A DNA stretch of 64,000 nucleotides, taken from NCBI RefSeq assembly GCF_009497655.1, contig NZ_CP023317.1, positions 3,253,501 through 3,317,500 of the forward strand. The letters run 5' to 3'. This document shows positions 35,628 through 37,282 of the stretch, in pieces; position 1 is the stretch's first letter; each line of letters starts with the position of its first letter. This stretch comes from Priestia megaterium (GTDB lineage: Bacteria > Bacillota > Bacilli > Bacillales > Bacillaceae_H). A model generated the notes under the pieces. The model was not told the origin of the DNA. It ran no database searches and saw only the letters and a program-made list of their open reading frames with translations. The translations under genes were made by a program, and so were the position numbers.

Positions 35628-35867
35628 CTATAATTGATGACCCTGCTTTTTTTCTTTTTCACTTAATACGTAGTCTGTTATAAAACCAAGAATAAGTCCA
35701 ACGGCTACCGGTATTAAACCGCCTTTTGCTTCCATTTGAAAATTTTCCGGTTCATTTACATAAATCCACTGAACTGAAAGCAACGAAATATGAAAGGTAT
35801 TTCCGATAAAAAATAAAAGTGCTATGGTGCCAATTGTTACGCCGAATGAAATGATGTATTTCTTCAC
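35628..35867 (-). CDS. Small two-helix membrane protein downstream of yidC
   Basis: 79 residues from a GTG start behind AAAGGAGGGG: helix IISFGVTIGTIALLFFIGNT, a polar extracytoplasmic loop (WIYVNEPENFQMEAKGG), helix LIPVAVGLILGFITDYVLS and a charged tail. It follows yidC by 55 bp on the same strand and shares its terminator, so it is part of that unit. It might be a client or modulator of the insertase (inference). Family not recognised. Confidence 0.6.
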   Translation of the reverse strand: MKKYIISFGVTIGTIALLFFIGNTFHISLLSVQWIYVNEPENFQMEAKGGLIPVAVGLILGFITDYVLSEKEKKQGHQL

Positions 35868-35922
35868 TGTACCCCTCCTTTCATTAAAAGGCTGCTCCAA
35901 GCAAAGCAACCTTTTAATTTCT

Positions 35923-36687
35923 TTATTTTGCTTCAAGCACTGCCTTTTCTCGAAAAACCTTTTTTAATACAAGAGATTGAAAGATCATAAACAAACTGCC
36001 CGTCATCCAATACAAGACGAGACCTGACGGTGAAAATATCCCAAAAGAAAGGACCATGACAGGCGAAAGAATTTGGGCTAGCAGTGCGTGGGATGAATTC
36101 ATTCCATCTACGCCTGTTTGCATAACTCTTCCCTGTAAGTACGTAGCAACCGCTGCAACGATCGGAAGAATAAAATAGGGATCCGAGTGCCCTAAATCTA
36201 GCCACAAAAAGGACGATGCGCTAATCTCATCTATTCGTCTAATCGCATAGTACACAATTGAAAAGACTGGAAGCTGAACTAGTAAAGGAATGCATCCCAT
36301 CAGCGGGTTAGCTCCATTTTCTTTAAGCAGTTCCATCATTTCACGCTGATATTGCTGCTGACTCTCAGGATCCTTATCTTTGTACTTCTCTTTTAGCTGT
36401 TGAAGCTGAGGCTGTATACTTTTATTGCTCAGCTGATTTTTATATTGAAGAATGTTTAAAGGCGCCAGCAGCATACGTACGCCCACCGTCACAAGCATAA
36501 TTGAAAAGCCAACGCTTTGATGAAGCCACGTATTTCCTATAAACAAAATGAGCAGTGAAAAAGGATAAATAAAATAGTGATCAAAAAAGTGAGTGTGCGA
36601 ACTTTGAATCACGTTTGCTGAATCACATCCGGCAAGTAGAAAAATGGAAACAACAATAAAGAAAAGCTTCTTTTTATGTTTTAACAT
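35923..36687 (-). CDS. yidC: YidC/Oxa1-type membrane protein insertase, lipoprotein form
   Basis: A 254-residue insertase with a lipoprotein signal (lipobox LLAGC, Cys21), five membrane helices, the conserved hydrophilic-groove Arg (Arg71 in VTVGVRMLLAP), the coiled cytoplasmic loop LQQLKEKYKDKDPESQQQYQ and the PLMGCIPLLVQLPVF segment. It inserts membrane proteins alone or with Sec. The form matches B. subtilis SpoIIIJ/YqjG. The upstream 96-codon ORF and a hairpin over the Shine-Dalgarno reproduce the mifM-yqjG (yidC2) control arrangement, so this is probably the inducible second insertase. Confidence 0.92.
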   Translation of the reverse strand: MLKHKKKLFFIVVSIFLLAGCDSANVIQSSHTHFFDHYFIYPFSLLILFIGNTWLHQSVGFSIMLVTVGVRMLLAPLNILQYKNQLSNKSIQPQLQQLKEKYKDKDPESQQQYQREMMELLKENGANPLMGCIPLLVQLPVFSIVYYAIRRIDEISASSFLWLDLGHSDPYFILPIVAAVATYLQGRVMQTGVDGMNSSHALLAQILSPVMVLSFGIFSPSGLVLYWMTGSLFMIFQSLVLKKVFREKAVLEAK

Positions 36688-36694
36688 TTATATT

Positions 36695-36732
36695 CCTCCA
36701 GTATTTTTTTAGTTAAACGAAAAAAATACTGG
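36695..36732 (-). promoter_or_regulatory. Stem-loop sequestering the yidC Shine-Dalgarno
   Basis: On the minus strand CCAGTATTTTTTT (36732-36720) and AAAAAAATACTGG (36710-36698) form a perfect 13-bp stem with a 9-nt loop. The GG at the stem end belongs to the GGAGG of yidC (36699-36695). The stop codon of the upstream ORF straddles loop and 3' arm. A ribosome paused near the end of that ORF would hold the 5' arm open and free the site. Confidence 0.8.
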
Positions 36733-36999
36733 CGAATAAGGACCTTCATCGTCTTGTTCACCTATTGCTTCTTGTCTCTGAACAGAATGTATAAATTTAA
36801 ATTTATGATACACGCAGCATATAAGATCCTGAGCACGTAAAAGATTTACGTTTTGTATGAGATACATGTCTTTTTGCTGCAGGCAAACGTGCTTATGTAT
36901 TGTTTGAAATGTAGCTAGTTTAATAGCAGCATGTACAAAGAATGCTGTCATGATCGCAAATGATAAATACACTAAAGCATCCGGTATAAATAATTCCAT
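36709..36999 (-). CDS. mifM: MifM-like regulatory nascent chain upstream of yidC
   Basis: A 96-residue protein, one residue longer than B. subtilis MifM. It has one N-terminal membrane segment (ALVYLSFAIMTAFFVHAA), a soluble basic part (DLICCVYHKFKFIHSVQRQ) and a C-terminal acidic cluster (EQDDE, 81-85), the same order as MifM, whose arrest region ends in DEED. Direct sequence similarity is weak, so the call rests on architecture: length, position before yidC, and the hairpin. In that model low insertase activity prolongs translational arrest and turns on yidC. If it is not MifM it is still a short membrane-targeted leader ORF. Confidence 0.6.
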   Translation of the reverse strand: MELFIPDALVYLSFAIMTAFFVHAAIKLATFQTIHKHVCLQQKDMYLIQNVNLLRAQDLICCVYHKFKFIHSVQRQEAIGEQDDEGPYSPVFFSFN

Positions 37000-37282
37000 T
37001 TATTCACATACTTATGGATTATTGTATCATATTTTCCTTATTTTAGGTTAAATATTTTTATGAAGCAGATTTAATCTAATGTAGCCCACAAAACCGATTT
37101 CCTTATAGGAGTCAAAAAATAAGTTTCTTTTTGTACATGTCATTATACATTTTGATGAAATGACGTATAGACAATATACTGGGACACATATAATTCTAAA
37201 AATTTCTACTTTTATTAGCAAAAAGGATATTATTCCTTTTTATGGTATAATCAAAAAATATAATTCATAGGGAGTGAAACTA

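Follow-up and report, generated by a model that had tools for sequence, protein, structure and literature searches.

A predicted MifM-like arrest peptide before a third yidC gene in Priestia megaterium

In this study, a 96-codon open reading frame (ORF) lying directly before a lipoprotein-type yidC gene, here called yidC3, was analyzed in a 64,000-nucleotide stretch of the Priestia megaterium chromosome (NZ_CP023317.1, positions 3,253,501 to 3,317,500; the whole stretch is referred to as the window). The ORF most probably encodes a self-stalling leader peptide, MifM-like but a separate variant, that would gate translation of a reserve YidC3; the arrest is predicted. The features on which this reading depends are as follows.

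36709..36999, minus strand: MifM-like leader ORF of 96 amino acids, with an N-terminal transmembrane segment (TM) at about residues 8-26 and a conserved core at residues 73-87.
36739..36783, minus strand: codons 73-87, the presumed arrest core V-x-R-x-E-x-x-G-E-x-D-D-E-G-P, invariant in the seven-row family alignment; the plasmid row agrees.
36720..36732, minus strand: 5' arm of the stem, CCAGTATTTTTTT, from codon 90 through the first base of codon 94.
36698..36710, minus strand: 3' arm of the stem, AAAAAAATACTGG; its final two bases provide the leading GG of the yidC3 Shine-Dalgarno GGAGG.
36695..36699, minus strand: Shine-Dalgarno GGAGG of yidC3, read from the sequence.
35923..36687, minus strand: YidC3, 254 amino acids, lipoprotein-type insertase (PF02096, E 1.5e-45; lipobox LAGC).

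The initial annotation described a 96-codon ORF with one membrane segment and an acidic C-terminal cluster before a lipoprotein-type yidC, and all of these elements were recovered. The top-scoring 19-residue hydrophobic window of the peptide was residues 8-26, the acidic cluster was E81-Q-D83-D84-E85, and the LAGC lipobox was present in YidC3. The peptide ended in SVQRQEAIGEQDDEGPYSPVFFSFN, and the gap between its stop codon and the yidC3 ATG was 21 nucleotides. The flanks of the TM carried net charges of -2 (N side) and +2 (C side), and from this charge distribution the TM would be oriented N-out/C-in. A search of the ORF against Pfam and NCBIfam gave zero matches at E up to 1.

The leader family was followed in eight loci: the window (genome G000), G001, G008, two genomes of another genus of the same family (g2; G010 and G011), Ectobacillus funiculus, a plasmid of P. 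aryabhattai, and the genome G178. A truncated copy in G006 was excluded from these counts. In the seven-row alignment, the invariant residues clustered near the C-terminus (V73, R75, E77, G80, E81, D83, D84, E85, G86, and P87), and the core was common to 8/8 loci, the eighth being the plasmid row. The E-x-D-D-E motif stood at residues 81-85, and at 82-86 in G178. Conserved residues outside the published MifM motif were Y64, K66, V73, R75, E77, and G80. Conservation of the ORF C-terminus in relatives, proposed as a check by the initial annotation, was thus borne out by the core.

In codons 1-87, the proportion of synonymous differences (pS) was well above the non-synonymous proportion (pN) in all four Priestia pairs compared, for example 0.59 and 0.07 in codons 1-70 between the window and the plasmid copy. 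The leader ORF is therefore a real gene under purifying selection. Between the window and g2 (L026), pN was 0.34 in codons 1-70 and 0.12 in codons 71-87; the core is under tighter constraint than the remainder of the leader. In the last nine codons, which lie partly within the stem, the synonymous excess was missing in some pairs.

The stem over the yidC3 Shine-Dalgarno consisted of 13 perfect pairs between CCAGTATTTTTTT and AAAAAAATACTGG, as had been claimed from the window alone; the 5' arm ran from the first base of codon 90, and the 3' arm covered the first GG of GGAGG. The claim that the ORF stop falls at the loop was correct only as to the loop edge: T of the stop is the last loop base, and the 3' arm begins with its AA. 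The stem region folded with a z score of -3.68, and 1 of 200 shuffles folded as well. Scores of -2.9 to -5.0 were obtained in the 6 of the 8 loci that were folded with shuffles. A helix of 12-17 pairs ending in the Shine-Dalgarno was present at the same place in all eight loci, so the conservation expected of the stem was also found. Measured from the start of the last acidic codon, the helix began 11-15 nucleotides downstream in the eight loci, while the stem letters varied.

A common 12-pair register over the eight sequences gave standard pairs in 96/96 cells. Compensatory changes on both sides occurred at five of the 12 pairs (2, 3, 5, 10, and 11, numbered from 0 at codon 90), and pairs 0 and 1 showed a one-sided change to G-U. 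The register was taken from whichever helix near codon 90 was best in a given sequence, a choice that favours pairing but does not produce both-sided changes. As a yardstick, three leader-yidC2 junctions were folded, with z scores of -1.9, -2.7, and +0.9; these stems were thus weaker than most stems of the window family, and one was no better than chance. An intrinsic terminator was considered at the stem and none was called; the 3' arm had no U-run after it. Among known RNA families, the only match was to a microRNA and fell below threshold (24 bits, with a cut-off of 63).

The initial annotation took the window gene for a second yidC. The window genome (G000, 5.24 Mb) encodes three YidCs, which makes the window gene the third, with SpoIIIJ (YidC1) and a YqjG-type YidC2 elsewhere; the former was taken as SpoIIIJ because it is located between rnpA and jag. 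Arg71 of YidC3 lined up with an arginine in SpoIIIJ and YqjG, which we take to be the groove arginine of YidC. In a tree of 27 YidCs, the window type (the window, the plasmid, two g2 genomes, and Ectobacillus; five rows) formed a clade of its own with support of 100/99. This first tree gave a warning of a long branch beside the YidC3 clade (L050, from G178). With that row left out and the G001 copy added, the YidC3 clade had six members and support of 100/100. YidC3 is not a YqjG/YidC2 orthologue and belongs to a separate clade. The YqjG-like YidC2 of the window genome was preceded by its own MifM-type ORF, typed by position and DEED cluster and ending in NNDEEDPFLLKNTSYI. Since YidC2 has this leader elsewhere in the genome, the window ORF is a second, diverged MifM-like peptide.

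The rnpA-jag junction was without spoIIIJ in both sampled g2 genomes (L054 2116-2503 in G011; L055 1101-1485 in G010). The junction held an 85-codon ORF in G011 and only shorter ORFs, of 35 and 45 codons on that strand, in G010. A PF02096 search at E 1e-10 found two YidCs per g2 genome, one behind a DEED-type leader and the other, YidC3, behind a window-type ORF. The YidC behind the DEED leader of G010 grouped with YqjG in trees. Every YidC found in these genomes thus stands behind a leader peptide. If the reading is true, g2, having no spoIIIJ, is a natural case where leader peptides control every YidC that was found.

In a sample of 10 species genomes of the genus, the leader ORF was found in four and yidC3 in two (100% and 90% identity); the other YidCs of this sample had at most 44% identity to YidC3. 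The ORF and yidC3 were both complete in G000 and G001. In G008 (L005 1345-1788), the leader, at 94% identity, and the stem were kept, and yidC3 was reduced to a 43-codon ORF. In G006 (L007 1345-1626), the leader kept 42 residues only; the sequence beyond these, read by eye in a different frame, looks like the end of the adjacent ABC permease gene. Outside the genus, the ORF-yidC3 pair was present in both sampled g2 genomes and in E. funiculus. The YidCs found in E. funiculus (an assembly of unstated completeness) were only SpoIIIJ and YidC3 behind a window-type ORF; as the only further YidC, the ORF-YidC3 pair holds the place of MifM-YidC2 there. The ORF and yidC3 were also found near a group II intron and IS21 on a 163-kb plasmid of P. 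aryabhattai G5MAi6 (NZ_CP118719.1; L065 3475-10076), where the leader ORF is annotated "hypothetical protein". The next intact gene was yidC in six of the eight loci (the window, G001, the two g2 genomes, E. funiculus, and the P. aryabhattai plasmid).

Wider sampling was done mostly with one genome per species. A scan of named genomes gave 24 pattern matches, two of which encode relatives (P. aryabhattai B8W22 and E. funiculus). A draw from the order at E 0.01 matched 9 of 397 genomes; seven matches were real, one of them the truncated G006 copy, and two were frames broken by stops. A second, overlapping draw from the order matched 6/386 genomes at E 1e-4. A draw from the class matched 1/398, the window's own genome only, and in the family of G178 the leader matched 4/193 genomes, of which one, G178 itself, was real. 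Weak profile matches in G301 and G338 (order) and in G228, G846, and G869 (family of G178) were dropped for stops in frame. The leader family is rare and scattered, occurring in the P. megaterium group, g2, Ectobacillus, and one genome with Tn7-type genes. A phage origin was considered and dropped, as 276 pattern matches in viral contigs yielded no confirmed relative; phage records searched with the G178 version of the leader only gave no match.

The genome with Tn7-type genes is G178. An ORF of 54% identity, with core and stem, lay there (L056 4038-5971) directly upstream of a gene for a 539-codon MutS_V-domain protein, which has N-terminal hydrophobic stretches by eye. Upstream of the leader were matches to TnsA (PF08722, PF08721), a Mu-type transposase as TnsB (PF09299), TniB (TnsC type), and TnsD. 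Elsewhere, G178 encodes SpoIIIJ and a second YidC of unsure tree place behind an acidic-type leader. Of 193 genomes, 9 (G178 included) carried relatives of the MutS-like gene. In seven of the eight others the start was readable and a leader was found in none, including the 74%-identical G853 copy; the G912 copy has no N-terminal half, and its leader region was unreadable. Because these seven gene relatives stand without it, the leader seems to have been placed before another gene in G178, an observation from one assembly near a contig end. A defence role is not claimed for the MutS-like protein, for which PADLOC matches were weak (best E 1.3e-4).

These observations allow a tentative and rather doubtful extension, in which the leader and stem would be a portable cassette on mobile elements, the cargo would be translated only when the insertion machinery is overloaded or damaged, and G178 would hold a re-targeted YidC-type sensor. 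To our knowledge, there is no earlier case of a YidC-type sensor re-targeted to an unrelated gene, and the one literature search aimed at such a case turned up no precedent. The Tn7-linked copy raises the question whether arrest sensors re-wire to new genes.

Signals and genes flanking the ORF-yidC3 pair in the window were as follows.

37021..37029, minus strand: candidate extended -10 of the ORF-yidC3 transcript, TGATACAAT, called by eye.
37005-37013, minus strand: likely ribosome site of the leader, reading AAGTATGTG in the window.
35628..35936, minus strand: small membrane ORF of 102 amino acids, overlapping the end of yidC3 by 14 nucleotides, with no match over a family cut-off.

Bases resembling the candidate -10 also stood upstream of the ORF in L005, L006, and L065. 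The leader ribosome site was AAGGATGTG in G001, G008, the plasmid, E. funiculus, and G178, and AAGTATGTG instead in the window; by this difference, leader translation may be weaker in the window strain than in those relatives. An ORF similar to the 102-residue ORF follows yidC3 in G001 (L008), and none was seen behind the plasmid copy.

The proposed mechanism has four steps. As the nascent chain emerges, its N-terminal TM, N-out by charge, would be suited to insertion by YidC. The conserved core would then stall the ribosome from within the tunnel, with roughly E85-P87 in the P site. When YidC inserts the TM, the pull would release the ribosome, and the 13-bp stem would hide the start of the yidC3 Shine-Dalgarno and keep expression low. 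When insertion is slow, the stalled ribosome would cover the base of the stem, the Shine-Dalgarno would be open, and YidC3 would be made.

In a ribosome-occlusion calculation, a simple model applied to five of the eight loci, the bases covered by the ribosome were hidden and the remaining RNA was folded. The residual structure became weaker; in the window it had -20.9 kcal/mol when codon 82 occupied the P site and -6.0 when codon 86 did, a change due in part to the shorter RNA that is left. The openness of the Shine-Dalgarno responded clearly in g2, from 0.36 in free RNA to 0.92 with a ribosome at codon 86, and partially in Ectobacillus (0.12, 0.45) and G178 (0.14, 0.49). Several results weigh against the proposal of a YidC-sensing arrest peptide. 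In the window, the mean openness of the Shine-Dalgarno did not rise steadily (0.42 free, 0.70 at codon 85, 0.38 at 86, 0.31 at 87, and 0.82 at 89). In the plasmid copy, it rose late, being at most 0.31 until codon 88 (0.52). The two g2 ORFs are very close to each other, with 3.5 against 3.5 changes in codons 1-70, too few to show a synonymous excess; between the window and G001, codons 88-96 held 0 synonymous and 2 non-synonymous changes. The deletion of yidC3 next to an intact leader in G008 and the different next gene in G178 show that control of yidC is not universal in the leader family. The published MifM arrest motif RIxxWIx5MNx4DEED (PMC7897499) is absent from the window peptide, which has no Trp and no DEED.

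To the same side belongs the low probability, only 47%, that hhalign gave to a match between the profile of the window family and eight leaders before other YidCs. The match had a P value of 2e-4 and was colinear over 82 columns, the whole peptide. The comparison set comprised seven leaders from genomes of the window's taxonomic family and one from G178, B. subtilis MifM itself not being among them; two rows of its alignment start nine residues before the likely Met, and the G178 row (L050) precedes a YidC of unsure type. The score was reached by 0/200 full-column shuffles and, with block shuffles, by 1/200 (not inspected) and 1/300 (three columns only). Since shuffles so seldom matched the score, common descent of the window leader and MifM-type leaders is likely, but not proven.

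It is improbable that the ORF encodes an ordinary small membrane protein, whose stem and overlapping translation only couple its synthesis to that of YidC with no programmed stall. Ordinary passage of a ribosome to codon 96 would also melt the stem, the stop being at the loop edge, and the purifying selection on the ORF extends beyond the core. Against this, at large distances it is the acidic core and not the TM that is most constrained, and the distance from core to stem stays within 11-15 nucleotides while the stem letters change. The ORF and stem are also found upstream of an unrelated gene, an arrangement that a role as a YidC partner would leave unexplained. A still smaller probability is given to an arrest peptide that senses something else, such as an inhibitor, a metabolite, or the overall state of the membrane, and for which YidC3 would be one of the possible outputs. 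The MutS-like membrane ATPase as the output gene after Tn7-type genes in G178, the persistence of peptide and stem without yidC3 in G008, and the conserved residues outside the MifM motif would suit such a sensor. The TM placement, the charge of the N flank, and the spacer of 52-56 residues fit the published YidC-monitoring class instead, and in most of the loci the intact downstream gene is yidC. A MifM-like arrest peptide acting on YidC3 was preferred.

B. subtilis MifM has 95 amino acids and stalls at four codons from D89, and its arrest requires R69, I70, W73, I74, M80, N81, and DEED at 86-89 (PMC4423224). In MifM homologues, a shared acidic region covers about 75-95, the TM-to-acid spacer has a median of 54, and the acidic cluster between residues 70 and 100 serves as a criterion (PMC10987492); PMC6037786 describes both the stem and its disruption. 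The spacer of the window family was 52-56 amino acids in seven rows, against this median of 54 (PMC10987492). The window system shares with MifM-YidC2 (YqjG) an N-terminal TM, an acidic cluster, a spacer, a stem over the downstream Shine-Dalgarno, and a YidC target (PMC6037786, PMC4423224, PMC10987492). It differs in its target, which is of the separate YidC3 clade, in the core V-x-R-x-E-x-x-G-E-x-D-D-E-G-P in place of RIxxWIx5MNx4DEED, in its coexistence with a MifM-type YidC2 leader in one genome, and in occurring once on a plasmid and once behind Tn7-type genes. The Priestia leaders before YidC2 keep DEED or DDED; by eye, they likewise do not keep the RIxxWI spacing. The term MifM-like is thus justified and MifM orthologue is not, because the published arrest motif is absent. 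The window family agrees with MifM in its anatomy (TM, spacer, acidic cluster, and stem) and departs from it in the motif and in the target, which is YidC3 and not YqjG. In a search of solved structures, the MifM-type leader of L003 had no match and the window-family profile a best E of 0.55. Literature searches on MifM in Priestia and on YidC arrest peptides in megaterium turned up no papers.

Other arrest peptides offer partial parallels. CliM of Clostridia, taken to be the uC_KYxIW group of PMC10987492, lies upstream of one of three yidC genes of C. kluyveri and was shown to monitor YidC (PMC13183943). It differs from the window leader in coming from another lineage and in not relying on an acidic cluster of the kind seen in MifM. 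ApcA of actinobacteria is an arrest peptide upstream of a secondary yidC (PMC7897499), and its R-A-P-G type motif (PMC10987492) is absent from the window peptide. In B. subtilis, the RAGP arrest peptide YwcI precedes sacT, which is neither a sec nor a yidC gene, a precedent for the G178 layout (PMC10987492). Unlike the G178 leader, YwcI is of the RAGP type and is not described there as a moved relative of a YidC-linked leader.

On the best reading of these sequences, the window leader would be a distinct, separately evolving variant of MifM-type insertase sensing, sometimes carried on mobile DNA and possibly re-targeted. If this is true, one cell has two insertase sensors that have evolved separately, and each comes with a reserve YidC of its own. 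The different core of the second sensor, a genus in which no free-running YidC was found, and a possible re-targeting make the system more than another MifM. Since the two Priestia leaders share the acidic cluster, the TM placement, the stem logic, and little else, their comparison would separate what is essential from what is incidental in acidic-type arrest.
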